Source: Anaerolineaceae bacterium (GTDB taxonomy: Bacteria > Chloroflexota > Anaerolineae > Anaerolineales > Anaerolineaceae). Taken from it: a DNA stretch of 64,000 nucleotides. The notes beneath the pieces are model-generated. The model was not told where the DNA came from, made no database searches, and saw only the letters and a program-made list of their open reading frames with translations. A program made the position numbers and the translations under genes. Positions within the stretch are counted from its first letter, which is position 1. Every line of letters starts with the position of its first letter. Positions 17,595 through 47,647 of this stretch are shown in pieces. The stretch is taken from the NCBI GenBank assembly GCA_016841365.1, contig JAENZI010000004.1, positions 124,001-188,000 on the forward strand. Reading direction: 5' to 3'.

Positions 17595-18818
17595 TTATCT
17601 TCCTAACATTTTCAATGCTTTGCGTATGGCGGTCACCAGCGCATCAATATCCTGCATGCTATTGTAGAGCGCCAGGGAAGCACGCACTGTGCCGTCAATG
17701 CCCAGGGCGGCCATGATCGGTTGGGTGCAGTGATGCCCTGTGCGGACAGCGACACCCTGGGTATCCAGCAGGGTGCCCAGGTCGTAATGGTGGATGCCTT
17801 CAATATTGAATGCCAAAATGCTGGATTGCTCTTTGGCGTTGCCGTAGATTCTCAAACCCTCAATTTCTAACAGCCTTTCTCGGCCGTACGCCAGCAGTTG
17901 ATCCTCATGCGCTTGGATGTCTTCAAAGGACAGCGTGTTGAGATAGTCGATGGCTGCCGCTAACCCGATTGGCCCGACGATGTTGGGCGTACCGGCTTCA
18001 AATTTGAAGGGCAGTTTGTTATAGGTGGTCTTTTCAGCCGTGACGAGGTCGATCATTTCGCCGCCGCTTTGATAGGGCGGCATGGCATCCAGCCAGCGTT
18101 CTTTGCCGTACAATACGCCAATCCCAGTGGGGCCATACATTTTATGCCCGGAGAAAGCGTAAAAATCGGCATCCAGCGCGCGCACGTCATGTGCAATATG
18201 CTGCACAGATTGCGCCGCATCCACCAGCACGGCTGCGCCTACCTTATGGGCCATGTCAATCATCTTTTTGGCGGGGTTAACGGTGCCGAGGGAGTTTGAG
18301 ACGTGGTTGAAAGCGACGATGCGTGTTTTTTCCGATAATAAATTTTCATAAACTTCCAGTTGAAGTTCGCCGTTCTCGTCAAAGGGGATGACGCGGAAAT
18401 GTGCCTGTCGGCGTTCGCACATCATCTGCCAGGGGACGAAATTGGAGTGATGATCCATCTGGGTGACGATCACTTCATCGCCCGGGTTGACAAATGCCTC
18501 ACCAAAGGCAAAAGCGACCAGGTTGATCGATTCGGTGGTGCCGCGCGTGAAAATGATCTCGTGTTCGTGCTCGGCGTTGATGTAGCGTTGTACCGTCCTG
18601 CGCCCGCTTTCGTGGGCTTCGGTTGCCAGAGACGAGAGATGGTGCGCTGCCCGGTGGATGTTGCTGTTGTAAGTCGTGTAATACTGGGTGATCGCTTCGA
18701 TTACCGATTGGGGTTTTTGTGTGGTCGCCGCGTTGTCCAAATAGGTGAGCGGGTGACCGTTAACCTCTGAATGTAGTATCGGGAAATCAGACCGGATTTT
18801 TTGAATGTCGATTGCCAT
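17595..18818 (-). CDS. sufS: Cysteine desulfurase SufS
   Basis: 407-aa PLP enzyme that converts L-cysteine to alanine and a protein persulfide. PLP Lys226 is in AFSGHKMYGPTG and the catalytic Cys364 is in RTGHHCTQP. The residue numbers coincide with those of E. coli SufS (Lys226, Cys364). Cofactor contacts TRGTTESINL, HHSNFVPW and VDAAQS are present. It forms a two-gene operon with sufE and has a plausible promoter at 18854-18882. Confidence 0.95.
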   Translation of the reverse strand: MAIDIQKIRSDFPILHSEVNGHPLTYLDNAATTQKPQSVIEAITQYYTTYNSNIHRAAHHLSSLATEAHESGRRTVQRYINAEHEHEIIFTRGTTESINLVAFAFGEAFVNPGDEVIVTQMDHHSNFVPWQMMCERRQAHFRVIPFDENGELQLEVYENLLSEKTRIVAFNHVSNSLGTVNPAKKMIDMAHKVGAAVLVDAAQSVQHIAHDVRALDADFYAFSGHKMYGPTGIGVLYGKERWLDAMPPYQSGGEMIDLVTAEKTTYNKLPFKFEAGTPNIVGPIGLAAAIDYLNTLSFEDIQAHEDQLLAYGRERLLEIEGLRIYGNAKEQSSILAFNIEGIHHYDLGTLLDTQGVAVRTGHHCTQPIMAALGIDGTVRASLALYNSMQDIDALVTAIRKALKMLGR

Positions 18819-18853
18819 TGCTTCCTTTATTTCATTTAGGTGTATATAGATGA

Positions 18854-18882
18854 ATTTTACCCGACAGGTATCAATTTGACAG
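18854..18882 (-). promoter_or_regulatory. Possible promoter of sufSE
   Basis: On the minus strand CTGTCA (18877-18882), a 17-base spacer and TAAAAT (18854-18859), about 35 bases upstream of the sufS start. The -35 box matches consensus at 4 of 6 positions. Confidence 0.4.
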
Positions 18883-18931
18883 CCTGATTTACAAAAGTTA
18901 AGTGGATGGTTGTGATTGGTATGCGGAAGAA

Positions 18932-20143
18932 CTAATTTTGTATTGGATTGGCTGACGAGGGCAGCTTGAGCCGTTCCCCCAGCTTTCCTAAAGGCAGACC
19001 ATTGACAAGGTGCCCGGCGGCAGACGCCAAATTGTATCTTGATTTGTCTATTGCCACAATTTCAACACGCTTGCCGGTTCGGTCTGCATCCTCCAATACA
19101 CCCGAGAGCGTGTGAATGCCCGGCAAAATATAAAATTGAGCTCCGATTCTGGCTGCGATGGGTTGGTTCTCATCGCTGGCGACGATGAGGTGTACCGTAC
19201 CGGGCGGGAAGTTTGGCGTCACTTCGGCAAGAAAGCGGGCAGCATCAGGCGTCCCGATGGGGGTGAGATCAAGGATCTGTGCCTGGGGGGCTATGTTGGT
19301 GACCGCACCTATGACCAGGCCGGTACCCACATCATCCCGTGGAGATTCTGTGATCAGGGTCAGGATACCGTTGCTCTCAAGGCTTGAGGCGGCTGGCGGG
19401 TTGCCAAATTTTGCCACCAGGTCATCGTAGTTAAGCCCCTGACGGATCATTTGGGCGAAGACTTCGGGAAGCCCTGTCTGTCGCATGGCATGCACAGCGG
19501 CGTTGATATTGTAGGGAACACGGAACATTTCAGCGGTGACTTCGTACTTATTAAGCGTTAAGACGGCATAACTGGGGCGCGGGTCTCCGTCATCCGGCCG
19601 CCCGACGGTGCCCGGGTTGATGAACCACACAGCATTCACCTTGCGGATGAAGCCCTGATGGGAATGTCCGCAAAGGATAATGTCAGCATCGGTTGTGGCT
19701 GCTAATTCGGCCAGGCGGCTATCGGGTGTTTGCGGCAGCAGATGCTCGTTGATCGATGCCGGGCTGCCGTGGGTCAGCAGGATCTTCTGTCCGCCAAGCT
19801 CGACCAGACGCTGTTTCGGGAGCTTGGATAAAAATTTGCGAGATGGTTTTGAGAGGGATTGGTACGTCCAGGCAAACATTTGGCGTTTTTCTGGTGTTTT
19901 GACGCGCTGCCAACCCTCCTGGCGGTGCTTTTTGCTGAGTACTTTTTTGTCGTAATTGCCGAGAATGTTGATGAAAGCAGGGTTCTGAATGCGCTGTACG
20001 GTTTGTTCAGGGTTGGGTCCGTAGCCGGTTGTGTCGCCCAGGTTCAGGATAACATCTCCGGTAGATTGCCCCCTGGCATGGCGCAGAACCGCCTCTAGCG
20101 CGTGGATGTTGCCGTGAATGTCGGAAAGAACAACGATCTTCAT
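18932..20143 (-). CDS. Metallophosphoesterase fused to a degenerate SAM hydroxide adenosyltransferase-like domain
   Basis: 403 aa in two parts. Residues 1-210 are a complete YfcE/ApaH-type metallophosphoesterase: SDIHGN (Asp8, His10), NLGDTTGYGPNP (Asp37), GNYD (Asn63), THGSP (His125), CGHSHQG (His160, His162). Residues about 259-392 resemble the N-terminal domain of DUF62 SAM hydrolases: a matching start (GILTLITES), NIAPQAQILDLT, NFPPGTVHLIVA, and a final ASAAGHLVNGLPLGKLG. The DUF62 catalytic triad Asp-Arg-His is lost (positions align with Ser323, an Ala near 331, Asn371) and TDF and PDNG are changed. So it may bind a ligand rather than cleave SAM. Its ATG overlaps the CHAD gene stop by 4 bases (ATGA), so it is the last gene of that operon. 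Confidence 0.8.
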   Translation of the reverse strand: MKIVVLSDIHGNIHALEAVLRHARGQSTGDVILNLGDTTGYGPNPEQTVQRIQNPAFINILGNYDKKVLSKKHRQEGWQRVKTPEKRQMFAWTYQSLSKPSRKFLSKLPKQRLVELGGQKILLTHGSPASINEHLLPQTPDSRLAELAATTDADIILCGHSHQGFIRKVNAVWFINPGTVGRPDDGDPRPSYAVLTLNKYEVTAEMFRVPYNINAAVHAMRQTGLPEVFAQMIRQGLNYDDLVAKFGNPPAASSLESNGILTLITESPRDDVGTGLVIGAVTNIAPQAQILDLTPIGTPDAARFLAEVTPNFPPGTVHLIVASDENQPIAARIGAQFYILPGIHTLSGVLEDADRTGKRVEIVAIDKSRYNLASAAGHLVNGLPLGKLGERLKLPSSANPIQN

Positions 20144-21213
20144 GATGTACTGTCTGGGGGTTGGGGCGCGTCCCTCTCTTCAACTGAGAGGTGCGCCTGC
20201 TGGAGATTTTCACCTTGTGATGCCTGCTGGGCGGCAAGGTGCTGCAGGGCTGCTTCAACATTGACCGGTGCGCTGATGATGTTCCGCAGGTTCTCCCAGG
20301 CTTGTTCACGCTGCAGTATATCCCATTCAGAGAGAAATGCCTGGTAGGTCTCATTACGGATATTTTGTTGGATTGCAACGAGGTGCTGGATGCCCGGCAG
20401 CAAGCGCTTGAGTGGGCCAGCGTTGCCGAAATAATCCTCAATGCGTTCCCTTTCTTCTTCGATGAATTTTGGCAGCCAGGCAATCCACACATCGGCATCG
20501 TGGATAGCGCCAAGTTGATCTTGGATGTCTTTCATAATCTGGATGTAAGGCAGCAGTGCTTGTTTATAGATCGGCGCAAAGATTTCCAGCGTATAACGGA
20601 AATGCTTCCCCGCAATCCGCATGGCATGCAGCGCTTCAATGTTTTCTGGTTTTTGAATGGCCGTTTGGTAACTCAGGAAGTCATCGAGGTGCTGGTTGAC
20701 CGCTGCATAAGCCTTTTGATACAGTGATGGGGTGAAGAGGTAAAGCCCTTCTTTGTTTGCCGCCATGTCTTCAAACTGATGCTGCAATATGTTGAAAATG
20801 CCTTCATCCTGGTAGCGGGTGAGGGTTTTTGTTACTTTATCTTGTGCCTTGGTACGGCGCTGTTTGAGCCTGAGGAGCAGACGGCGGTAGCCGGGTTTCA
20901 ATTTCTCGTCCAGGTCTTCGTCATACAGCAGGTTGAGGGTCTCGATCTGGATATCCAGATCACGCGCCCTGCCGAGGGTCTTTGTGACCCTGCGGATATC
21001 ATCCTGCCATGTGACAGATTTTTTCTTGGGGAGACATTCTCTGAAATGATCCATGGCGCTTCGCAGCCGGCGAGAGGCGACCCGCATACGGTGGATGTGT
21101 TCGATATCCTTGGGGTCCAGCGCACCTGCCAGGTCATTTTCGAGCACATTCACCTGTTCCAGCATGAAATTAGCGCCGAAGATGCAGATGGTTTTCTGAA
21201 CTTTTTTACTCAT
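20140..21213 (-). CDS. CHAD domain protein (polyphosphate-binding family)
   Basis: 357 aa. The CHAD fold is a helical bundle with conserved His and basic residues that binds inorganic polyphosphate. The signature HIHRMRVASRRLRSAMDHF is near residues 39-57, DLDIQIETL follows, and the second half repeats the pattern in ALHAMRIAGKHFRYTLEIF. It probably sits on polyphosphate granules or senses polyphosphate. It overlaps the phosphoesterase gene by 4 bases and follows two thymidylate-kinase-like genes on the same transcript, about 1.6 kb downstream of phoU, which supports a phosphate-storage context. Confidence 0.9.
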   Translation of the reverse strand: MSKKVQKTICIFGANFMLEQVNVLENDLAGALDPKDIEHIHRMRVASRRLRSAMDHFRECLPKKKSVTWQDDIRRVTKTLGRARDLDIQIETLNLLYDEDLDEKLKPGYRRLLLRLKQRRTKAQDKVTKTLTRYQDEGIFNILQHQFEDMAANKEGLYLFTPSLYQKAYAAVNQHLDDFLSYQTAIQKPENIEALHAMRIAGKHFRYTLEIFAPIYKQALLPYIQIMKDIQDQLGAIHDADVWIAWLPKFIEEERERIEDYFGNAGPLKRLLPGIQHLVAIQQNIRNETYQAFLSEWDILQREQAWENLRNIISAPVNVEAALQHLAAQQASQGENLQQAHLSVEERDAPQPPDSTS

Positions 21214-21268: not shown

Positions 21269-21982
21269 TTAGAAGTCTTCTTCGATGATGGATTGCTGGT
21301 CTTCGAGCAGATTACGGATGTGCATCTTTAAGTCTGAAAAGACATCCAGCACCGGTCGGGCTGCATTCACGGTGACAAACCCATATTGCTCTGCAAACTG
21401 GTCAAATAAGGTAACCAATGACGATTGGTAATCAATAAAGCTGTCATACAAGTCTTTTGAGGGATGGATGTCCATGCCGGCTTCCCAGTAATTCAGGCCG
21501 CGACCATGAATCAGGCGTGCTACCAGGTCCGTCACCTCGGCTTTAAGATACAGCACCAGGTCTGGTTTGAGTGCAAAACCGTACACCTTTTTTGCCCAAT
21601 CCGCATCGGCCCCGCGGGAAATATCGCGAGCCATAATTGAATAGAAGTAGCGATCCGAAAGCACGATAAAACCAGCCTGCAGCGCAGGGATGATCTGGTT
21701 TTCGAGCCTGTCAGCAAAATCGGTGGCATAGAACAGGCTCATGGTGATCCTGCCCAGCGTGTGTCCTTTGCGCGCTTCTTCTAACCCCTTTTGGGTCATA
21801 TCAGAACGCCTCAGCCCCGTATCGGAGACCGCAAAACCTTCGTCCTCAAGCCATCTGCGCAACAGCTGGGTTTGTGTTGAGCGACCGACACCGTCCGAGC
21901 CTTCCAGGACGATCAGTTTGCCAGGAAGATCTCCAATTTCGCGATAAGGGAAACCTGCACCGTAGAAATCAGGGTCAGACAT
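21269..21982 (-). CDS. Thymidylate-kinase-like protein with an Arg-substituted P-loop
   Basis: 237-aa P-loop kinase-like protein of the thymidylate kinase fold. The Walker A motif reads GSDGVGRST (28-36): the invariant Lys is Arg34, encoded by CGC, so it is not a simple transition from a Lys codon. DRYFYSIMARDISRG keeps the DRY substrate-site motif, and NYWEAGMD is shared with the neighbouring paralogue instead of a standard Tmk lid. A P-loop Arg usually weakens or abolishes ATP hydrolysis, so this may be a regulatory or pseudo-kinase subunit. It overlaps its paralogue by one base (TGATG), which suggests equimolar production and perhaps a heterodimer. Confidence 0.82.
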   Translation of the reverse strand: MSDPDFYGAGFPYREIGDLPGKLIVLEGSDGVGRSTQTQLLRRWLEDEGFAVSDTGLRRSDMTQKGLEEARKGHTLGRITMSLFYATDFADRLENQIIPALQAGFIVLSDRYFYSIMARDISRGADADWAKKVYGFALKPDLVLYLKAEVTDLVARLIHGRGLNYWEAGMDIHPSKDLYDSFIDYQSSLVTLFDQFAEQYGFVTVNAARPVLDVFSDLKMHIRNLLEDQQSIIEEDF

Positions 21983-22713
21983 CAGGCATTTCCTTTCCGG
22001 GCGTTAATGTCCGATTGCATGAGAAAATAGGGGGTTCCATCAGGTGTCGGGAGACCTTTCCAGCCATCTAATTCTTGCTTGACGATCTCTCTCACCAAGC
22101 GCTGCTGCGCCTGGACGGTCAGGTTGCCGTCAATCACGGTCAGGTTGAATTCCTCTACCATGTTGTCATATTCGTTCAAGATGCGTTCCTGAAAGAGCTT
22201 GAAGCTCTCGATCCGGCTTTCTGATAGTTGGAGGTCCATCCCCGCTTCGTAAAACTTGAGCGCTGCCCTGGCGCTGGTGATGCGCTGAACGGCAATATCC
22301 AGCGGGACTCTAAAATACAGAGCGATATCAGGCTGCATGGCGAAGGAATACAGGTTGCGAACCCAATCCTTATCCACTCCCCGTGCAACATCGCGCCCGA
22401 AGGCAGTAAAGGCATACCGATCCGCCAGAACGATCACGCCTGCTTTCAGCATCGGCAGGATGCGGTTCTCCCACCTGTCCGCAAAGTCAGTGCATTGCAG
22501 TAAGCTGAATGTGCTGGGGGTGAAGAGCTTGCGTTTTTTGGCGCGCTTTGTGGTGCTCTTGACCAGTGCAGACGAATTCCACTCACTAAAATAAACAGAT
22601 CGCCCCTGTGTTTGAAGCCACTTATACAGCAGGTCGATTTGGGTGGATTTCCCGCTGCCGTCGATGCCCTCAACGATGATCAACTTCCCGGGGGTTGTAT
22701 TTTTCCTCAACAT
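21982..22713 (-). CDS. Thymidylate-kinase-like protein with an intact P-loop
   Basis: 243-aa P-loop nucleotide kinase of the Tmk fold: Walker A EGIDGSGKST (15-24), the DRY motif in LADRYAFTAFGRDVARG, and AMQPDIALYFRVP after it. It shares with its downstream paralogue the block FYEAGMDL, which is not a normal Tmk lid. I take the ATG at 22713 as start because GGAAGG lies 7 bases before it; the in-frame GTG at 22728 overlaps that site. A minus-strand TATAAT at 22755-22760, just after the phoU terminator, probably starts the transcript of this gene, its paralogue, CHAD and the phosphoesterase. It could be the cell's dTMP kinase, or a kinase of this operon with another substrate. Confidence 0.8.
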   Translation of the reverse strand: MLRKNTTPGKLIIVEGIDGSGKSTQIDLLYKWLQTQGRSVYFSEWNSSALVKSTTKRAKKRKLFTPSTFSLLQCTDFADRWENRILPMLKAGVIVLADRYAFTAFGRDVARGVDKDWVRNLYSFAMQPDIALYFRVPLDIAVQRITSARAALKFYEAGMDLQLSESRIESFKLFQERILNEYDNMVEEFNLTVIDGNLTVQAQQRLVREIVKQELDGWKGLPTPDGTPYFLMQSDINARKGNA

Positions 22714-22794
22714 ATGCACGCCTTCCACCAGAATAAACGCTTTGGATGACCAAAATTATACTTGATTTATCCTTCCGGATGCGAATGTTTGTAC

Positions 22795-22850: not shown

Positions 22851-23540
22851 TTAAAATTCGTCTTCTTCAAGCCACTCGTCATCCGAAACGTCAATTTCTA
22901 ATAGTTCGCCTGTTGCGATAAAAATGGTGCGTTCGCAAATATTGGTCACCCGATCTGCCATGCGCTCAATATTGTGCACGATCCACATGACGTAGTTAGA
23001 GTGATCGATGATGCCAGGGTTTTCGATCATGTTGGTGACATTCTTATGGAGTATCTGCTTGAAGAGTTCATCGACCAGATCATCTTCCTGGGGGATGCGG
23101 TATGCCATATTCACGTCTTCATTGATGAAGGCGCTTAACGCCCGATGGAGCATGCCAACGGCCAGGTCTCCCATCCGGGTGATTTCATGGATCGGTATGA
23201 CTGTGTCGTCCTCACCGATCAGGATGTTGATCTTTGCAATCCCTTTGGCGTAGTCACCCATCCTTTCCAGTTCGGTAATCACTTCAAGGATTGCTGCTAA
23301 AAACCGCAGGTCATGTGCGATGGGCTGCTGTGTTGCAAACAGGATCAGGACTCGGTTTTCGATGGCATAGCGTTTTTCGTTGATGACGTCATCATCCCGA
23401 TAAACTTTGCGCGCCGCCGAAAAATCACGCCTTTTGAGGGCGTCAATGGCATTCAACATCGCCTGTTCGACCATGCTTCCCAACAGTAGGACTTCATCCT
23501 GTAGATGGTGAATTTCGCGGTCTAAGGTTTGACGCGGCAT
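22851..23540 (-). CDS. phoU: Phosphate signalling regulator PhoU
   Basis: 229 aa with two PhoU three-helix repeats. The metal-binding signatures are ELERMGDYAKGIAKI (about residue 90) and IERMADRVTNICE (about 190). PhoU damps PhoR signalling through the Pst transporter and limits phosphate uptake. It follows pstB, 52 bases downstream, and its ATG has GGAGCT in front. The acidic C-terminal tail (DVSDDEWLEEDEF) is longer than usual. Confidence 0.93.
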   Translation of the reverse strand: MPRQTLDREIHHLQDEVLLLGSMVEQAMLNAIDALKRRDFSAARKVYRDDDVINEKRYAIENRVLILFATQQPIAHDLRFLAAILEVITELERMGDYAKGIAKINILIGEDDTVIPIHEITRMGDLAVGMLHRALSAFINEDVNMAYRIPQEDDLVDELFKQILHKNVTNMIENPGIIDHSNYVMWIVHNIERMADRVTNICERTIFIATGELLEIDVSDDEWLEEDEF

Positions 23541-23592
23541 GGGTAGCTCCTGATAGATGGATAAGGTTAAGGTACTGCTATTTTATATGATT

Positions 23593-24486
23593 TTATCCGA
23601 AACGACCAGTCACATAGTCTTCGGTTTGTTGGCATTTCGGGTTGGTGAAAATTTGGTCGGTGGCATCCATTTCTACCAATGTGCCTGAGCGGTCTTCATC
23701 GATCATCAAAAAGGCTGTAAAGTCCGATACGCGTGCCGCCTGCTGCATGTTGTGGGTCACAATCACGATGGTGTAGTTCTCTTTAAGTTCTTCCATCAGA
23801 TCTTCGATCATTAATGTGGCAATCGGGTCGAGGGCAGAGGCAGGCTCGTCCATTAAGATCACGGCGGGCTCGACAGCCAGCGCGCGTGCAATGCACAGAC
23901 GCTGCTGCTGGCCGCCTGAAAGCGCCAATGCAGATTGCTCGAGCTTGTCTTTAAGGTCCTTCCATACGGCTGCCTGCCTGAGGCTCTGTTCGACAATTTC
24001 ATCAAGAACATTCTTATTGCGGATGCCGTAAAGACGCGGTCCATAAGCGACATTGTCATAAATGTTCATCGGGAAGGGGTTGGGTCTCTGGAACACCATC
24101 CCGACCCGCTGGCGGATGTCCACAACATCAACATCAAGGCCGTAAATGTTCTTGCCGTTAAGCAGCACCTGCCCGGTGATGTGCGATCCCTTAACCAGGT
24201 CGTTCATCCGGTTGAATGATCGCAGTAAGGTGGATTTTCCGCAACCCGAAGGTCCGATCAGTGCCGTGATCCTGTTTTCAGGGATGTTGATCGAGATCTT
24301 GTTCAGCGCACGGAATTTTCCGTAATAAACGGATAGGTCCACAGCAGCCATTTTGACGGGGAGTGCATCAAGGGGTAATTGCGCGGCTTTTTCCCCAAGG
24401 CTGATGCTGGTTTGTATGGGTTTATTTCGTTTTGAGGGCGAAGATGAAGGCGACAGCGTGAGAATATCAGGTTTTGAAAGATTCAT
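23593..24486 (-). CDS. pstB: Phosphate ABC transporter ATP-binding protein PstB
   Basis: 297 aa. Walker [10 protein letters not shown], signature LSGGQQQR and Walker [14 protein letters not shown] are all intact, and [15 protein letters not shown] is the PstB-specific Q-loop region. It should energise high-affinity phosphate uptake with PstC and PstA, but no pstS, pstC or pstA gene is in the window. About 45 residues precede the usual PstB start ([11 protein letters not shown]); that Ser/Pro-rich extension may be real or the start may lie further in. I use the ATG at 24486; no clear Shine-Dalgarno is seen. PhoR lies 147 bases upstream. Confidence 0.92.
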
Positions 24487-24632
24487 AAGTGTTGTTCGTT
24501 CATCGTAGTGCAAATCCGTCTGGATGACGGCTCAATCAAGATTTAGATCATGTTAATCTTATCATTTCTGTATTTAAGTTAATCAGTCACAAGGTTAAAT
24601 CTGGATAAATTAGGGTAAAGATCAGATTAACG

Positions 24633-26357
24633 TCATGCAATGGGTAAATTGAAGTAGAGGGTGCTGCCTACGCCTTCTTCGCTCCTGGCCCAAATATAAC
24701 CGCCATGGGATTCGATCATGTGCCTGGCGATGGATAAGCCTAACCCTGTCCCGCCACCGGCGCGTGCCCGATCTGCCTTGTAAAAGCGTTCGAAGATCCT
24801 GCTCAAATCTTTCTTTGGGATTCCAACACCCGTATCCTGGACGAAGAACACAATATGTTCGCCTTCCCGGTAGGCAGAGAGCGTGATCTTACCGCCTGGT
24901 GGGGTGAACTTGATGGCGTTGTGCACCAGGTTGATCAATACCTGGGTGATGCGGTCCGGGTCGGCGAAGACAGCGGGCAGATCTGGTTGGCAATCAAAAT
25001 GCAATTCAAGCCCGGCGCGCTCGGCTTGCAGCACCATCCGTTCATAAGATGGCCTGAGCAGGTCACAGGGCTGTATGCGGTGGAAGGATAAGGGCACTTT
25101 GCCCGATTCGATTCGAGAAAGCTCGAGCAGTTCGTTCACAAGCTGCGTCAGGTTGTCGATTTCCGTCTCCATTCGCAGGATGAAACGCTTTGCGGCTGGC
25201 GGGTCATCCAGTGCGCCTTCTTGCAGGGTCTCTGCCAGCGCCTTGAGGCTTGCCAGCGGGGTGCGCAGTTCATGCGAGACGTTACTGATGAAATCCCGCC
25301 GAACGGTTTCAAGCCGGCGCAACTGGGTCAGGTCTTGAAAGAGGAGCAGGGTTGACCCGGGCAGGGAAATCTCCAGGGGAATGCCGATCACCTGTAAGAA
25401 AAGGTGCTGCGGGCCGATTTCGAGCATGGTGCTTTGCCTTTTCCCCTGGTTGGCTTCTTGCCACAGCTCAACCAGTTGGTGGTAGCGCATGACCTCCACA
25501 ACGGAGCGGCCCAAACCGGTTTTTTCGTTGATCTGGAAAAGGCGCCCAGCAGCGGGGTTTAATAACTGCACGTGACCTTCGTGATCGGCAATGATCACCC
25601 CATCGGTCATCTGGTTCAGCACTGCTGATAGTTTCGCGCGTTCCTTTGTGAGAGTATCAATCTGTGTTCCCAAGCGTTCTGCCATATCCTTGAAGGTTTC
25701 GACAAAGGCATGCAGGGGAGGCGGGGAATCTGGATATTCCAGGTTGGTGAAATTTCCCATTTGGATTTGTTGGGCAGCGATATTTAATTTTTCAATGGAT
25801 TGTTGAGAGCGATCCTGCACGATCAGGGCTAAACCAATCACCGCTGCTGAGCTGATCAGCAAAGCAAGCGCGCCAACGGCAAAGATCCACCTGAGATCGT
25901 GTTGATAAGTTGCCTTGGCTGACTGAAGCGTGATGTAGCCGAGAACTTGATTCCCTTCATCAGCGATGACGGTCGTCGTTGTGATCCCCTGGCGGTTCGA
26001 GATAGCCGCCTGACCCTGGCTTTGAGCTTGAGCAAACGCACCCATATCTGGCTGCGCGCCTTCTGGCAGCGACGATGCCAGGATCTCAGCGTTGGCATCC
26101 AGAAAGGTGATTTCTGCTGTTATTTGTTGGGTTGTTGTTTGAATAAGTTCAGATAAGTCGCTGCGATTGGGCTGTGGTTGATAAGCTGCCTGTGCTTGCG
26201 CTGCAATCAGGTGGGCTGTATTGAGGAGTTGATCCTCCCAGCGAATTTTATCCTCCTGCTGGACGCGGTTGACGATCACACCCGTCAGGATGCTGAAAAT
26301 CAGGACCAGCAGGATCAGGTAAGGCAGGGCAAACCGCCAGTGCGTATGGCGCGCCAT
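24633..26357 (-). CDS. phoR: PhoR-like sensor histidine kinase
   Basis: 574 aa. TM1 about 9-30, an extracytoplasmic domain of about 125 residues, TM2 about 158-180, HAMP, a PAS domain (about 243-345), HisKA with His362 (FISNVSHELRTPLASLK) and a C-terminal ATPase domain (DPDRITQVLINLVHNAIKF, GGTGLGLSIARHMIESHGG). The order TM-HAMP-PAS-HisKA and the FISNVSHELRTPL sequence are typical of PhoR in Gram-positive and Chloroflexota lineages. It lies 3 bases after phoB, its cognate regulator. The large sensor loop differs from the loop-less E. coli PhoR. Confidence 0.88.
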   Translation of the reverse strand: MARHTHWRFALPYLILLVLIFSILTGVIVNRVQQEDKIRWEDQLLNTAHLIAAQAQAAYQPQPNRSDLSELIQTTTQQITAEITFLDANAEILASSLPEGAQPDMGAFAQAQSQGQAAISNRQGITTTTVIADEGNQVLGYITLQSAKATYQHDLRWIFAVGALALLISSAAVIGLALIVQDRSQQSIEKLNIAAQQIQMGNFTNLEYPDSPPPLHAFVETFKDMAERLGTQIDTLTKERAKLSAVLNQMTDGVIIADHEGHVQLLNPAAGRLFQINEKTGLGRSVVEVMRYHQLVELWQEANQGKRQSTMLEIGPQHLFLQVIGIPLEISLPGSTLLLFQDLTQLRRLETVRRDFISNVSHELRTPLASLKALAETLQEGALDDPPAAKRFILRMETEIDNLTQLVNELLELSRIESGKVPLSFHRIQPCDLLRPSYERMVLQAERAGLELHFDCQPDLPAVFADPDRITQVLINLVHNAIKFTPPGGKITLSAYREGEHIVFFVQDTGVGIPKKDLSRIFERFYKADRARAGGGTGLGLSIARHMIESHGGYIWARSEEGVGSTLYFNLPIA

Positions 26358-26360
26358 TAA

Positions 26361-27077
26361 TTATCCTTCAAAGCGATAGCCGGCGCCTCTCACTGTGATG
26401 ATGCGGCGCGGGTTGGCAGGGTCCTGTTCGATTTTTTCACGCAGCCAGCGCACATGCACATCCACGGTGCGGCTGTCGCCGATGAAGTCCCATCCCCAAA
26501 CGCGTTCAAGGATGAATTCACGTGAGAGCACCTGCCCCTGGTGCTGCGCGAAAAAGGTCAGCAGTTCGTATTCCTTAGGCTTGAAGGCGATCACTTCACC
26601 ACCCACGGTGATTTCGCGGCGGATCATATCTATACGCAAATTGCCAAATTCAAGGATTTTGTCCTTGGTTTGGGTTTCTGTTTCTGAGACGTGGTTGACT
26701 TCTTCCCTGATCAGGCGCACGCGCCGTAGCATGGCTTTGACGCGGGCGATCAATTCACGCATGCTGAAAGGCTTTGCCATGTAATCGTCTGCGCCGACCT
26801 CAAGACCCACAACCCGGTCAATTTCATCGTCGCGGGCGGTGAGCATCAGGACAGGTGTGGACATTTCATGCCTTAGAATGCGGCAAATTTCAAATCCATC
26901 CATCCCGGGCAGCATCACATCCAGGATGATCAGATCCGGCTTGAGTTCCCGTGCCAGGTCCAGGGCTTTAGCCCCGTCCCCGGTGGTTTCAACGTCATAG
27001 CCTTCTTTTTTCAGGGTATATGCCAGTGTTTCCTGAAGTGAGATTTCATCATCAACAACTAATATTTTTTCTGCCAT
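26361..27077 (-). CDS. phoB: PhoB-like response regulator
   Basis: 238 aa. Receiver domain with phospho-acceptor Asp53 ([13 protein letters not shown]), Thr (LMLTARD) and Lys (YMAKPF), then a winged-helix domain with [24 protein letters not shown]-like PhoB/PhoP features and a normal end ([13 protein letters not shown]). Its Shine-Dalgarno AGGAG lies inside the last codons of the upstream glycosyltransferase gene, 2 bases away, so the two are translationally coupled. Assignment to the phosphate system rests on PhoR architecture and on pstB and phoU downstream. Confidence 0.88.
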
Positions 27078-42191: not shown

Positions 42192-43034
42192 TTATTTTGT
42201 GATCTCCACCTGCCACTCGGGCCCATAGCCAATTTCAAACATCTCGCTGAAGCTCCCCCGGTTGACCGCAACAGCCACGCGCATGAGCTCATTGTTATAG
42301 AGCATTGGTTCACCTGGTTCGGCGTAACCAAACGATTTTTCAAACAGCAGTTTTTGAGAGAAAGCCACCTGTCCCTCGTGGCGGATTGTGAGCTGCACCC
42401 GGGTGCCAAAGTCAAAACCTGCCTCAAAGAAATCCTTTAATGGGATATTGGTCCAAATATTACCGAAATTCGGATCGTTAATTTCGAAGATGCCCAGTGC
42501 ATGGCCTTCGCTGATCACGGGTTCGTGCATGGCATGAGAGATGATGTGTTTTACGTCATATTTTGAGCCGACCTGCTCAAATGTAATTTTGCCGCTGGCG
42601 AGTTTTGCCGCGCAATAGGAAAAAAGATCCCGACCGTGGAATACGCTCACACCTTCGGTGTTCTTCCCCTTCAATCGATTGGTGTTTTCGTCGATCTCCC
42701 GCACCTCCTCGATCCCCACCCAGTTTTTGAGATGGGTCAGTGAGCCGTTGTCGGGAGTGACAACGTAGTAACCATCAGAAGTCTTGGCAACGCAAGCCTT
42801 GCGCTCGGTGCCGACACCTGGGTCAACGACGGATACAAAAATGGTGCCCTTCGGCCAAAATGCCATGGATTGATAGAGTCGGTACGAGGCACTCCAGGTA
42901 TCAAATTTCGGGATTTCGTGTGTCCCGTCGATGATCTCCAGATCATGGTCAACGCTTTTTACCACGCCATACATGGCACAAACAGCGCCTTCTTTATAAG
43001 TAAAATCAGTTTGATATACGAGAATAGGCTTCAT
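42192..43034 (-). CDS. SAM hydrolase / SAM hydroxide adenosyltransferase (DUF62)
   Basis: 280 aa. Enzymes of this family split S-adenosylmethionine into adenosine and methionine with water. Active-site motifs are intact: TDF (9-11), VVDPGVGTERK with Asp71 and Arg78, TPDNGSLT (94-100), and FHGRDLF with His133, giving the Asp-Arg-His triad. The C-terminal domain (about 155-278) binds the adenosine part. It is the last gene of the ECF transporter transcript, 9 bases after ecfT, with a strong AGGAGG before the ATG, so the transporter and the enzyme probably act on one pathway, perhaps adenosine or methionine handling. Confidence 0.9.
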   Translation of the reverse strand: MKPILVYQTDFTYKEGAVCAMYGVVKSVDHDLEIIDGTHEIPKFDTWSASYRLYQSMAFWPKGTIFVSVVDPGVGTERKACVAKTSDGYYVVTPDNGSLTHLKNWVGIEEVREIDENTNRLKGKNTEGVSVFHGRDLFSYCAAKLASGKITFEQVGSKYDVKHIISHAMHEPVISEGHALGIFEINDPNFGNIWTNIPLKDFFEAGFDFGTRVQLTIRHEGQVAFSQKLLFEKSFGYAEPGEPMLYNNELMRVAVAVNRGSFSEMFEIGYGPEWQVEITK

Positions 43035-43043
43035 TGTGTCCTC

Positions 43044-43883
43044 CTAAATGAAAGGGTTATAAAACCGGCTTTGATTGATGAATATTGAAACTGCAACGGT
43101 GCCCAAAAAGATCAAGGTCGAAACAGTGATGGCAATGTGATCTTCCCGGGTCATCTTCCTGGCAGTATACCAGGTGCGCGACTTACTCTTGGCAAACCCA
43201 CGCAGGTCCATGGCATTGCTGATCAGCTCAATACGGTCCAGCGAAGAGAAGATCAATGGAATGATGATCAGCAAACCATTCTTAACACGGTTGCCAAGGG
43301 AGGCTTTGCGAGAAAGCTCGAGGCCGCGGGCTTGTTGGGCAAGGCTGATATCGCGATAATCCCGCTGAACATCCGGGAAGTAGCGAAGGGTCAGCGCGAC
43401 GCCGTAGGCTGCTTTATAGTTTACCCCGATGCGATTGAGCGAAGAGGCAAACTCGCTTGGATTGGTTGTGAGTAGAAAGATGATGCCAAAGGGAATCACT
43501 GAAACATATTTAAATAGCTTCGTCACACTGTAGAGCAATTGCTCCTGTGTGAGGGCAAATCTCCCGTAAAGTTTGACGATGGGGTGACGGGTGCCATAAA
43601 TTTCCACGCCCATTTCAGGCGCAAAGAAAAAAGAAATGATCGCATTGGTGAGAACAAAGATCAGCACGTAAATGACCATCAACTTGATCTGGGAAAATTT
43701 AATTTTGGAAATTTTGATGATATAGATTGAAAATACCATCATGAGCAAGATGACACGGATGTCATAAGAATACATCACAGCAAATGTGAGCAGCAGAAAG
43801 CAGATCAGCTTTGTTAACCCGGACAGCCGATGAATTGGTGAATCGACGGTGTCATAAGAAAATAACTTTGCCTTGGCGTTCAT
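43044..43883 (-). CDS. ecfT: ECF transporter membrane-coupling protein EcfT
   Basis: 279 aa, with N-terminal helices and the two coupling-helix motifs that contact the ATPases: AQQARGLELSR (first Ala-Arg-Gly motif) and SNAMDLRGFAKSKSRTWY (second, ARG variant). EcfT couples ATP hydrolysis to release of the vitamin-like ligand held by the S component. Its ATG overlaps the ecfA stop by 4 bases (ATGA), so it is coupled to ecfA. Confidence 0.92.
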   Translation of the reverse strand: MNAKAKLFSYDTVDSPIHRLSGLTKLICFLLLTFAVMYSYDIRVILLMMVFSIYIIKISKIKFSQIKLMVIYVLIFVLTNAIISFFFAPEMGVEIYGTRHPIVKLYGRFALTQEQLLYSVTKLFKYVSVIPFGIIFLLTTNPSEFASSLNRIGVNYKAAYGVALTLRYFPDVQRDYRDISLAQQARGLELSRKASLGNRVKNGLLIIIPLIFSSLDRIELISNAMDLRGFAKSKSRTWYTARKMTREDHIAITVSTLIFLGTVAVSIFINQSRFYNPFI

Positions 43884-45589
43884 CGGTTCTTCAGCTTCCT
43901 TTCGTAATTGATGAAACCCTGAACAAACGCCGTCTCATCCGGTATGCCAGCCATTTGCGCCAGGTGATAAAGAGATGTCTCCTTTAAGTTGGCTTTCTCG
44001 ATCACCTCGGGGTCGGTTAACACCACCGACGCCGCGGTGTCGGCGATCAGCTTGCCGCCAGAAAGGACGATAGCACGAGGCGTGTATTCCAGCATGAGGT
44101 GCATGTCGTGGGTAATGAGGATGATCGTCACACCCATTTTGTTGATCTCCACCAAAAACTCCATGATCTCGGTGTAATGGCGGAAGTCCTGCCCGGCGGT
44201 TGGCTCATCTAAAATCAGGACTTCAGGCCCTAACGCCAGGATCGAGGCGATTGTGACACGCTTTTTCTGCCCATAGCTGAGCGCGGAAATTGGCCACTCT
44301 ACAAATGGCGCCAGGCCGCAAATTTTGAGCACTTTTTCTACTCTGGTCTTTATCTCTTCTTCAGGGACTTCTCTAAACCGCAGACCCAGGGCAATCTCGT
44401 CAAAGATCAAATTTTTGGAGATCATCTGGTTGGGGTTTTGCAGTACCACACCGATCATCTCTGCGCGTTCTTTTATGGATTTATCTTTAATATCTTCGCT
44501 ACGATAATAAATGGTGCCCTGATCAACTTTTTCAAAACCGCATAGCAGTTTTGAAAGCGTGGACTTACCCGCACCGTTCTTGCCAACCAATGAAACCATT
44601 TCCCCTTCGCGAATGTCGAAGGTGATATCCTGCAGGACTGGACGTTTGCCGTCATATGAAAACGAGACATTATCCATCCTGATGACGGATGGTTTGGTTT
44701 CGGCAGGTGGCGGTGTCTGGATGTTTTTCTGCCACTCGGTTAAGGCATCCGTGGAAAGCCGTGCTTTGAGCGTGGTGATATATCCCGGCAGCATCTCCCG
44801 CGTCACATCCACACCGGCATATTTTAATGCCGTCACATATAGCGGTTCACGAATGCCGGTGTTGATCAATATATCGGATGAAACCAGCGAGTGAGCATCC
44901 TGATCGGCGATAATCCGGCCGTCATTGACTACGAGGATGCGGTCTACATGGCGGTGCAGCACATCTTCAAGGCGGTGTTCAATGATAATGACGGTCTTGC
45001 CCGAGTTGTTGTGGATGTCGTCAATGATTTCAATGGCTGTTTTACCCGTTGCCGGGTCGAGGTTGGCGAGAGGTTCATCGAATAATAGGATATCTACATC
45101 GTTGACCAACACACCCGCTAATGAAGTGCGTTGTTTTTGCCCGCCCGAGAGTTCAAAGGGTGAGGATGTCAGAAAGCTCTGCATTTCCACCATATCAGCC
45201 ACTTTCCTGACGCGTTCGTGCATTTCAGCATGGGGAACACTATCGTTTTCGAGGGCAAAGGCAATATCTTCGCCAGCGCTTAACCCCACAAATTGACCAT
45301 CAGAATCCTGCAAGACGGTTCCGACAAATTTAGATAACTCGAAAATGTTTAGATCTTGGGTGGATTTTCCGTGGACGGTCAGGCTGCCGGATATTTCGCC
45401 TTTGTATGAAAAAGGGATCAACCCATTGATGCAATTCCCCAGGGTGCTCTTGCCGCTGCCGCTGGGGCCAACGATTAAGATCTTCTCGCCTGGGTAGATG
45501 CTTAAATTAATATCATGCAGGGTTGGTTCAGCTTGGCTGAAGTATTGAAAGGAAAAATTTTTAAATTCGATGATGGCTTGTTTTTCCAT
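43880..45589 (-). CDS. ecfA: ECF transporter double ATPase (EcfA1-EcfA2 fusion)
   Basis: 569 aa with two ABC ATPase domains in one chain. First: Walker A GPSGSGKST, Q-loop VLQDSDGQFVG, signature LSGGQKQR, Walker B DILLFDEPLANLDP. Second: GKNGAGKST, VVLQNPNQMI, LSYGQKKR, VLILDEPTAGQD. In most ECF systems these are two genes. Start taken at the ATG 45589 (MEKQAIIEF); a GTG at 45616 is also possible and neither has a strong ribosome site. It lies downstream of the S component, with a terminator-like hairpin and a dyad between. Confidence 0.9.
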   Translation of the reverse strand: MEKQAIIEFKNFSFQYFSQAEPTLHDINLSIYPGEKILIVGPSGSGKSTLGNCINGLIPFSYKGEISGSLTVHGKSTQDLNIFELSKFVGTVLQDSDGQFVGLSAGEDIAFALENDSVPHAEMHERVRKVADMVEMQSFLTSSPFELSGGQKQRTSLAGVLVNDVDILLFDEPLANLDPATGKTAIEIIDDIHNNSGKTVIIIEHRLEDVLHRHVDRILVVNDGRIIADQDAHSLVSSDILINTGIREPLYVTALKYAGVDVTREMLPGYITTLKARLSTDALTEWQKNIQTPPPAETKPSVIRMDNVSFSYDGKRPVLQDITFDIREGEMVSLVGKNGAGKSTLSKLLCGFEKVDQGTIYYRSEDIKDKSIKERAEMIGVVLQNPNQMISKNLIFDEIALGLRFREVPEEEIKTRVEKVLKICGLAPFVEWPISALSYGQKKRVTIASILALGPEVLILDEPTAGQDFRHYTEIMEFLVEINKMGVTIILITHDMHLMLEYTPRAIVLSGGKLIADTAASVVLTDPEVIEKANLKETSLYHLAQMAGIPDETAFVQGFINYERKLKNR

Positions 45590-45667
45590 ACCTGCCGATC
45601 TAACCTGAATAGTCACGAAATATCATTTTACCAAACAATCACGAAAAACAAATGCGGCCATGCGGGC

Positions 45668-45693
45668 GACAAGTGTAATTTAGATACATTGTC
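45668..45693. promoter_or_regulatory. Inverted repeat upstream of ecfA
   Basis: GACAA(G)TGTA / TACATTGTC with one bulged base and a 7-base spacer, about 80 bases upstream of ecfA. It includes a minus-strand TTGACA. It may be an operator for separate control of ecfA-ecfT and the SAM hydrolase gene. Confidence 0.4.
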
Positions 45694-45734
45694 AAAAATC
45701 TGCTTTTGTTGTCATGTTCATAAGGGCATAAAGA

Positions 45735-45760
45735 AAGCTGGCGTCATCTGACGCCAGCTT
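45735..45760 (-). terminator. Hairpin terminator between the S-component gene and ecfA
   Basis: 12-bp stem AAGCTGGCGTCA / TGACGCCAGCTT with a 2-base gap, flanked by T-rich sequence on both strands (TTTATC... on +, TTTCTTTAT on -). It may be leaky, giving more S component than ATPase. Confidence 0.75.
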
Positions 45761-45785
45761 TTATCTTTTTCACCAAAACGAAAGT

Positions 45786-46343
45786 TTAGCCTTTGCTCAG
45801 GCTGCCCTTCTTGGTGCGGGTGGCGGCATAAGCGATCAGAAGCAGGGTGCCGAACACGCCTGCGCTGATGATATTCATGATGGCAGCGGTGATGCCCTGG
45901 GTGAAGACTAAATTGGCGGGTTCCTGATAGATGAGGATATCCAGCACGGGGGCAACAAGGATCCAGGCGATGGCGTTGCCAATGATCTGGATGATGTTGA
46001 AGGTGATGATGTCCTTGCCCTTGAATTCGCCCTCTTCAACACGAGTACGTTTGAAGGCGAACCCGAAGACGAAGCCGGCGACGCCGCTGGCGATCACCCA
46101 GCTCCACCATGGGGAACCATATTGCACAGCATCGCTAAGGGCGTGGCCGATGAATTGGATCAATGCACCGGCGATGGGGCCAAAGAGCGTCGCCATGAAG
46201 GCGCCTAACCCATAGGCTGTCTGGAAGCTGGTTTCGGGGATGGGTGATGGGATTTTGACATACATGAATAAGAGCATAAAGAGTGCTGCGCCAATGCCGA
46301 TGGCAACGATCGTGCGGGTTGTAATTTTGAACAAGCCTTTCAT
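45786..46343 (-). CDS. ECF transporter substrate-specificity (S) component, UPF0397 family
   Basis: 185 aa, five or six membrane helices. Family hallmarks VAIGIGAALF, IPSPIPETSFQTAYG, LFGPIAGALIQFIGHAL and GSPWWSWVIASGVAGFVFG match UPF0397. Proteins of this family bind a vitamin-like ligand that is not firmly known; automatic riboflavin labels are unproven. The ATG follows AAAGGAGAT. It begins the ecf operon after a 220-base leader with several hairpins. The SAM hydrolase gene at the operon end may hint at the ligand. Confidence 0.9.
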   Translation of the reverse strand: MKGLFKITTRTIVAIGIGAALFMLLFMYVKIPSPIPETSFQTAYGLGAFMATLFGPIAGALIQFIGHALSDAVQYGSPWWSWVIASGVAGFVFGFAFKRTRVEEGEFKGKDIITFNIIQIIGNAIAWILVAPVLDILIYQEPANLVFTQGITAAIMNIISAGVFGTLLLIAYAATRTKKGSLSKG

Positions 46344-46587: not shown

Positions 46588-47448
46588 TTACGAAGTTTTG
46601 TTTGCGTTCGTTTTTACCTTTCTTAGATATTTGCTCACCCGGCCTTCATCTTCTTCGGGGTAATCGAAATTGAAAAATGCTGCCACCTCCCTGGCGCAAT
46701 CTCTGAAGAGTTCGGTTGAGTTCAAAAGGGCTTCCCAAGTGGGGTTGATTTCTGCGGGGGCAAAGGTTGCCAACAGGCGTGACCAGTGCTGCGCTGGGAG
46801 CACATGTTTTAGATTGTCGCCCGCTTTGCCAGGGTTTTGGCGGAAATCCGTTCTTATCCCAAAATTCCAGGTGAGCATTTTGATCAACTCCCCGTGCATC
46901 ACAACATCCAGCATGTGGTGTGCAAGCAGGATGTCTGCGCGTGCCAGGCTTTTGGCAACATAGGTTGATACCCACCAGAACTCATTGCAGCAATCCCCAA
47001 AGGCTTTAGCTGTTGGCGGTGCCGGCAGGTAAGTCGCTTCACTGGGGGACGGGAAGGGCTTGAAGCGGTCGTCTTTGTCCATAAGCAGGATACTCAGGCT
47101 ATCATCCTCCATTTCCTTTGCGCTATCAACAGGGATCAGGGAAAGGTCAATCCGGTTGCCGTCCATGAATTGCATCAGGTATGTGAACCCACCATCACTA
47201 CGGGGCGCTTCAGACCCCATCAAATCCGGGGTTTGCATGATCATCCGCTCGCCGAAGCGGTCGATCCAGGTTGGGTCTGAGATGAAGGGTGTGATATCGG
47301 TCACAACGTATACAATGTCAAAATCCTGTAAGCGGTCGGGCTTGATGTTTGGATTTACCCGTGAGCCATTCAAGATCACCGCGCGGATGCGATCATCCTC
47401 GCGCGCTGTGGTGAGGATCAGGTCCATCATTTCTTGCTCGTTGCGCAT
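46588..47448 (-). CDS. AadE/ANT(6)-like streptomycin adenylyltransferase homologue
   Basis: 286-aa nucleotidyltransferase. The pol-beta motif LNGSRVNPNIK...QDFDIVYVV (about 26-50) gives the GS and two Asp metal ligands. NRIDLSLIPV adds the third acidic position. The C-terminal helical part (around WWVSTYVAKSLARADILLAHHML) matches AadE. Chromosomal homologues in environmental bacteria often are not proven resistance genes, so the substrate is unsure. I start at the ATG 47448, which has GAGAGG before it; the in-frame GTG at 47466 lies upstream of that site. It ends 15 bases before the -10 box of the ecf leader. Confidence 0.85.
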   Translation of the reverse strand: MRNEQEMMDLILTTAREDDRIRAVILNGSRVNPNIKPDRLQDFDIVYVVTDITPFISDPTWIDRFGERMIMQTPDLMGSEAPRSDGGFTYLMQFMDGNRIDLSLIPVDSAKEMEDDSLSILLMDKDDRFKPFPSPSEATYLPAPPTAKAFGDCCNEFWWVSTYVAKSLARADILLAHHMLDVVMHGELIKMLTWNFGIRTDFRQNPGKAGDNLKHVLPAQHWSRLLATFAPAEINPTWEALLNSTELFRDCAREVAAFFNFDYPEEDEGRVSKYLRKVKTNANKTS

Positions 47449-47647
47449 ACTGGGCAAACCTCTCACTATAATTTTTATCTATCGATGCTGGTTGTCATTA
47501 TAAAATAAATTCAGAATCCTCTTGAGTGATCAGGAATGTTAGAAGGGCGCAATGCTATCTGGACAATGTTCTGTTTGTCATTTATGATGGGGTCAGTAAA
47601 CTTAGTGTGTATGCTGGAACGAAATTGATTTTTAGAGGAGCAGATCT

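Follow-up and report, generated by a model that had tools for sequence, protein, structure and literature searches.

A metallophosphoesterase with a probable relic of a fused SAM hydrolase in an Anaerolineaceae bacterium

The gene at positions 18932-20143 (minus strand) of the window, by which we mean the whole stretch of 64,000 nucleotides analysed here, encodes a metallophosphoesterase (MPE) followed by the remains of a SAM hydrolase (SAM_HAT family, DUF62). In our reading, to which we give a probability of about 0.8, the MPE has been kept and the hydrolase half is a relic of a fusion found in the genus, which has decayed beside a second, intact SAM hydrolase. The gene would descend from a genus-specific fusion of a phosphodiesterase-type MPE with a SAM hydrolase that was complete and probably active. 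The lineage leading to the window would have retained the MPE half; from the hydrolase half the catalytic triad, the loops of the SAM site and the C-terminal domain are gone, and this half was presumably free to decay as the second hydrolase is kept beside an ECF transporter. The protein can be seen as a two-in-one enzyme caught losing one half, which is still whole and fused in sister species. Sequence comparison supplies the grounds for this: the domains present, the motif losses, the intact relatives, an acceleration specific to one half and a mutually exclusive pattern of intact copies.

The two halves of the window protein

The gene and its parts are as follows.

18932-20143, minus strand: MPE with vestigial SAM hydrolase N-domain, 403 amino acids (open reading frame, Pfam)
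19409-20143, minus strand: MPE half, residues 1-245, with SDIHGN, LNLGD, GNYD, THGS and CGHSH (Pfam, motif check, AF2, Foldseek)
18968-19369, minus strand: degenerate SAM_HAT_N domain, residues 259-392, with three in-frame deletions at site loops (PF01887 at 34.8 bits, alignments)
18819-18931, minus strand: gap of 113 nt to the next gene, the expected site of the C-terminal domain (three frames read, tblastn)

The MPE half is complete, as the original prediction had it. Metallophos_2 covers residues 1-198 (Pfam, 5.4e-29), all the metal-binding motifs are present, and both the AF2 model and a fold search give the fold of a calcineurin-like MPE. In the full AF2 model 209 residues have a pLDDT of at least 90 and residues 252-403 are nearly all below 50; this full model was used for the Foldseek search, the matches of which fall in the MPE part, with 3rqz and 3qfm as the nearest solved structures. 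Residues D37, H125 and H162 are invariant in 19 sequences, as are D8 and H10, two residues contained in the pattern by which some of the relatives were fetched. The nearest relative of this half with an activity in its PDB title is SapH (3qfm). The MPE half has probably been kept active and under normal constraint in the window lineage, and it may act on an adenine dinucleotide or another phosphodiester.

The assignment of residues 259-392 to the DUF62 fold family holds, as PF01887 (SAM_HAT_N) matches residues 262-369 at 1.7e-8 with 34.8 bits against a curated cut-off of 26.3. Structure prediction, which had been proposed as a check, yielded no confident fold (mean pLDDT of 42 in AF2 for the SAM_HAT part alone with one distant homologue from the window), and it is the profile that places this part in DUF62. 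Viral contigs, which were scanned in order to deepen the alignment, yielded no SAM_HAT relatives.

Alignments to intact homologues bear out the predicted loss of the catalytic residues and motifs. Relative to the intact fused copy of genome G012, TDFG has become TESP, DPGVGT has become S----D, PDNG has become PGIH, and FHGRD is deleted; the three in-frame deletions remove HQVR, PGVG and PDPSTSFHGRDIF (4, 4 and 13 residues). With the residues that we take to form the triad in PH0463 (2wr8), the corresponding positions in G012 are D327, R334 and H388, of which the first is S and the second N in the window protein and the third is deleted. This Asp-Arg-His triad is named as strictly conserved in SAM hydrolases in the accessible part of PMC10491745. 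The C-terminal domain (PF20257), on which the original prediction was silent, is absent from the window protein according to Pfam. In SAM hydrolases this domain supplies part of the catalytic site. No remnant of it could be recognised by eye in the three frames of the 113-nt gap. The last 105 residues of the nine other fusions, used as tblastn queries, gave no match near the end of the gene at E up to 10 and none over the window at E up to 0.01. According to the part of PMC12120602 available to us, the enzyme is a trimer with its catalytic site between protomers. The hydrolase half is best read as a relic that would no longer hydrolyse SAM.

Intact, dead and lost copies in the genus

Genomes other than that of the window (WIN) are denoted by G-numbers. 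With WIN counted, 8 of the 16 genomes of the genus encode an intact fusion of about 520 amino acids (G002, G003, G004, G006, G007, G008, G011 and G012). All eight copies keep TDFG, DPGVGT, PDNG and FHGRD and align over both SAM_HAT domains, both of which were found by Pfam in G012, the sole intact copy scanned. Their scores are 179-197 bits. Since these genomes retain the long fusion with all four motifs, the ancestor of the genus fusion was probably bifunctional; the intact fusion may be expected to hydrolyse SAM.

The window gene lies between two neighbours.

20140-21213, minus strand: CHAD-domain protein (polyphosphate-binding family), next gene upstream (PF05235 at 1.2e-49, neighbour in relatives)
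17595-18818, minus strand: SufS-like gene, directly bounding the locus downstream (comparison of loci)

The name of the downstream gene is our assumption from its sequence; the gene bounds the locus in WIN, G003, G006, G008, G009, G010, G012 and G013. The locus shows a graded loss. G009 carries a full-length dead copy, in which TDSS, NAAQGP, PDDG and AHLWG replace the motifs and the C-domain scores below the curated Pfam cut-off. The window copy is dead and truncated, the sister species G013 has an MPE alone (244 amino acids) between the same neighbours, and in G010 both halves are gone, the SufS-like gene coming immediately after CHAD. In G005 the locus comprises 410 nt with stops and what is left of the MPE N-terminus. 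In G014, G015 and G001 (98%, 76% and 66% complete) the search for a CHAD homologue was negative.

The suggestion that the degenerate domain serves as a sensor of SAM or adenosine is not supported by these findings. The degenerate domain is not conserved between species, dead copies being present in 2 of the 16 genomes and differing in form. The same fusion contains an intact enzyme in eight genomes, the pocket loops of the window copy are deleted and its C-terminal domain is gone, its hydrolase half has evolved about four times faster than the MPE half, and G013 does without the domain altogether. Such a pattern points to decay and not to a sensor under conservation.

A comparison of the two halves shows where the acceleration lies. 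The MPE half of the window protein is 55-64% identical to those of the nine other fusions, which are 53-88% identical among themselves, whereas its SAM_HAT_N domain is 37-43% identical to those of the same nine, the eight intact copies being 61-91% identical among themselves. On one fixed topology, the tip length of the window copy is 0.297 for the MPE and 1.202 for SAM_HAT_N, a ratio of 4.05; the ratio is 0.54-1.55 for the eight intact copies and 1.78 for G009. The ratio of C-domain to MPE is 3.7 for G009 and 0.14-2.23 for the intact copies, the top value belonging to intact G007. Free trees agree with the fixed topology (0.32 for the MPE and 3.05 for the SAM_HAT half of the window copy). Judging from these trees, fast evolution is confined to the hydrolase half.

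All ten fused copies form one clade in the SAM_HAT tree (98/99), in which the two dead copies are flagged as long branches and their place is unsure; the eight intact copies alone also form one clade (100/99). When 11 neighbours are concatenated, missing genes being entered as gaps, the resulting tree pairs WIN with G013 (96/97), G009 with G010 (100/100) and G005 with G007 (94/93), the order among its main branches not being settled, and the MPE tree weakly groups WIN, G009 and G013. Over 11 concatenated proteins G013, the nearest genome in the tree, is 74% identical to WIN. It is likely that there were at least two losses, namely that in G005 and one or more elsewhere. The decay in the window and that in G009 may have been separate events or one.

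The architecture, which the original prediction did not recognise, is indeed unusual. Among the matches listed for 147 genomes of the family, both halves occur in one open frame in this genus only; family matches in G019 and G410 run slightly into the MPE end across stops. No fusion was found among the matches listed for the class (298 genomes) and the phylum (400 genomes), where rarer cases can be missed. Nine long SAM_HAT frames from the class and phylum (G569, G541, G146, G103, G510, G465, G494, G168 and G102) were compared by BLAST, and all nine match the SAM_HAT half and none the MPE half. On plasmids, none of the 161 matching records covers 80% of the fusion; MPE relatives adjoin ACR3 arsenite efflux genes on plasmids H1, H2, H7 and H12 (Adhaeribacter, Pedobacter, Mucilaginibacter). 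Among the open-licence papers listed in our searches none reports a SAM hydrolase joined to a metallophosphoesterase, and the intact fusion may be previously undescribed.

The second SAM hydrolase and alternatives to decay

The prediction of an intact DUF62 enzyme elsewhere in the window proved correct.

42192-43034, minus strand: intact SAM hydrolase with both Pfam domains, from the subfamily linked to ECF transporters (157.7 bits)

This enzyme is 19% identical to the relic and belongs to a distant subfamily; therefore, it is not the parent copy of the relic. At 42192-46343 (minus strand) it adjoins ECF genes (an S component, PF07155, CbiQ and a double ABC ATPase). A neighbour similar to the window ECF ATPase is present at 6 of the 13 stand-alone SAM_HAT loci inspected, in some with only 33-35% identity. 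At 46588-47466 (minus strand) there is a resistance-type gene that strongly matches streptomycin adenylyltransferase (PF04439, 2.5e-109).

A full-length ECF-type SAM_HAT is present in WIN, G013, G010, G005, G009 and G014 (the others being 73-79% identical to that of the window). These are six of the eight genomes that lack an intact fusion, and no such copy was found in the eight that have one. Of the other two genomes without an intact fusion, both of which are incomplete, G001 has a broken copy (locus L204; stops, frameshift or contig end) and G015 none. In G004, which has an intact fusion, the ECF-type copy contains two stops and one frameshift (locus L203). Fisher tests, in which relatedness is ignored, give p values of 0.007 for all 16 genomes, 3.3e-4 without G001 and G015, and 0.018 for the eight genomes that are at least 90% complete; five of the eight intact-fusion genomes are 69-81% complete, so that an ECF-type copy could be missed there. 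This reciprocal decay, in which no genome shows both an intact fusion and a full-length ECF-type copy, is our main reason for thinking that redundancy with the second SAM hydrolase is probably the cause of the decay. Redundancy alone is not the full account, however, because at least four intact-fusion genomes (G002, G006, G011 and G012) carry another stand-alone SAM_HAT.

It is conceivable, though in our estimate unlikely, that the window domain is a repurposed pseudoenzyme, pruned but still folding, with a structural, docking or ligand-sensing role in the phosphoesterase. The relic still has an open reading frame, which none of its three internal deletions disrupts, and a degree of constraint may therefore persist. 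In a substitution-only neutral simulation of 151 codons starting from the G008 copy, the probability of meeting no stop was 0.05-0.09 at 42-60% identity and 0.21 at 70% identity. The deletions hit 11 near-invariant residues among the 21 removed, where random placement would give 5.1 (P 0.02), a placement compatible with the pruning of a kept fold or with a tolerance of loops. The preserved core stretches include FPPGTVH and AGHLVNGLPLGKLG, and the dead copy of G009 keeps its full length and 31 of 33 always-hydrophobic columns. In the window copy 24 of 29 such columns are still hydrophobic, and the neutral runs average 0.72-0.87; these columns do not separate the window copy from the neutral runs. 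Against a repurposed domain stand its entire loss in the sister G013 and the loss of both halves in G010. Moreover, the window copy is no closer to the dead copy of G009 (41% identity) than to the intact ones (37-43%), and it has lost 28 of the 40 near-invariant columns in the span (12 kept, as compared with 19 in G009) along with the SAM pocket loops. Decay remains the preferred reading, within which the relic domain may have a minor structural or non-SAM role.

Two other explanations are far less probable. Corruption of an intact fused gene by an assembly or sequencing error might be imagined in a draft genome of 19 contigs, but substitutions and in-frame deletions are spread over the half with neither a frameshift nor a stop, the genes on either side are syntenic and of full length, and a second genome, G009, also has a dead copy; we regard such an artefact as very improbable. 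Least credible of all is the view that the C-terminal part is no SAM_HAT domain but an ordinary accessory domain of a phosphoesterase. The low AF2 confidence, both alone and in the full model, would allow it, but it is contradicted by the homologues: PF01887 scores above its cut-off, the part is 37-43% identical to the high-scoring intact fusions, and the matches of all 48 phosphoesterase relatives from genome contigs are confined to the MPE half and end at residue 248 or before.

Phosphate and polyphosphate context and known systems

Upstream of the gene, the cluster continues as follows.

20140-20143, minus strand: ATGA overlap of the CHAD stop and the MPE start (sequence)
21269-22728, minus strand: two thymidylate-kinase-like genes of the same cluster (PF02223, order in relatives)
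22851-27077, minus strand: phoU (PF01895), ABC ATPase, histidine kinase and response regulator (Pfam, synteny)

The ATGA overlap suggests translational coupling of CHAD and MPE. The names pstB, phoR and phoB for the ABC ATPase, kinase and regulator would follow from their PhoU neighbour. The order regulator-kinase-ABC ATPase-phoU-tmk-tmk-CHAD-MPE is largely kept from regulator to MPE in the genus and partly in the family, G006, G008 and G012 being without the two tmk genes here. The thymidylate-kinase-like genes are adjacent and diverged within the PhoU/CHAD cluster, and the pair is also found in many relatives. CHAD domains bind polyphosphate, according to the part of PMC6537752 at hand, and the operon would appear to serve phosphate or polyphosphate metabolism. 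Polyphosphate kinase (PF02503) was matched in six of the eight intact-fusion genomes and in two (WIN and G005) of the six comprising WIN, G005, G009, G010, G013 and G014; a link with fusion loss was not supported (Fisher p 0.28). The four unmatched genomes are all at least 95% complete, and an intact fused hydrolase is absent from all of them.

CHAD/HD clusters of two further genera also include a SAM hydrolase gene. Three genomes of genus g11 have CHAD-MPE-HD-SAM_HAT as separate genes; the one HD gene that was scanned matches Ppx/GppA domain III. G020 (L110 13-3794) has CHAD-HD-SAM_HAT-ABC ATPase in a row with no phosphoesterase between. The g11 SAM_HAT copies sit apart from the fused copies in the tree; an independent second recruitment to the CHAD cluster is not claimed here, since these copies and the fused ones may still form a single clade (AU p 0.385).

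In a setting that responds to phosphate, the intact fusion would couple the cleavage of phosphodiesters to the hydrolysis of SAM, and the window protein would keep only the first activity. Tentatively, the intact ancestor, alive in half of the genomes, could have been a bifunctional dinucleotide or polyphosphate phosphodiesterase and SAM hydrolase of a phoU-CHAD operon. If this were true, SAM hydrolases would have their physiological role in the turnover of adenine nucleotides, linked to stores of phosphate or polyphosphate, and the window gene would be a natural experiment in which the hydrolase half has been dispensed with. The fusion suggests a functional linkage of the SAM hydrolase to the phosphoesterase in a phosphate/polyphosphate-type operon, and the graded loss in one genus shows which half is dispensable and where another SAM hydrolase is present. 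The intact fusion is more interesting than the relic and has a bearing on the purpose of SAM hydrolases, which is unsettled; in its accessible part, PMC12120602 (2025) doubts that clearing of (R,S)-SAM is their physiological function.

Among known systems, the window MPE half resembles the Sphaerobacter metallophosphoesterase 3rqz (sequence E 2.1e-23, fold E 7.4e-20) and 3qfm (SapH/Spr1479, in its PDB title an asymmetric Ap4A hydrolase and phosphodiesterase; sequence E 3.3e-11, fold E 1.9e-18). Both are about 23-31% identical to the window protein in structural alignments; unlike it, their chains of about 240-270 residues have no SAM_HAT part. The CHAD gene, which lies just upstream and whose stop overlaps the MPE start, is like those encoding the CHAD proteins of polyphosphate gene clusters (PMC6537752); the available main text of that paper makes no mention of "metallophosph". 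As compared with SAM hydrolases (PF01887 with PF20257; PH0463, 2wr8; the (R)-S-adenosyl-L-methionine hydrolase 22uy), the window N-domain is homologous but lacks the triad, the motifs, three loops and the C-domain, and it is fused behind a phosphoesterase. The intact fused copy of G012 matches members of the family in the PDB over almost its full length (2zbu, 1.3e-59; 2wr8, 4.8e-41; 22uy, 4.3e-33).
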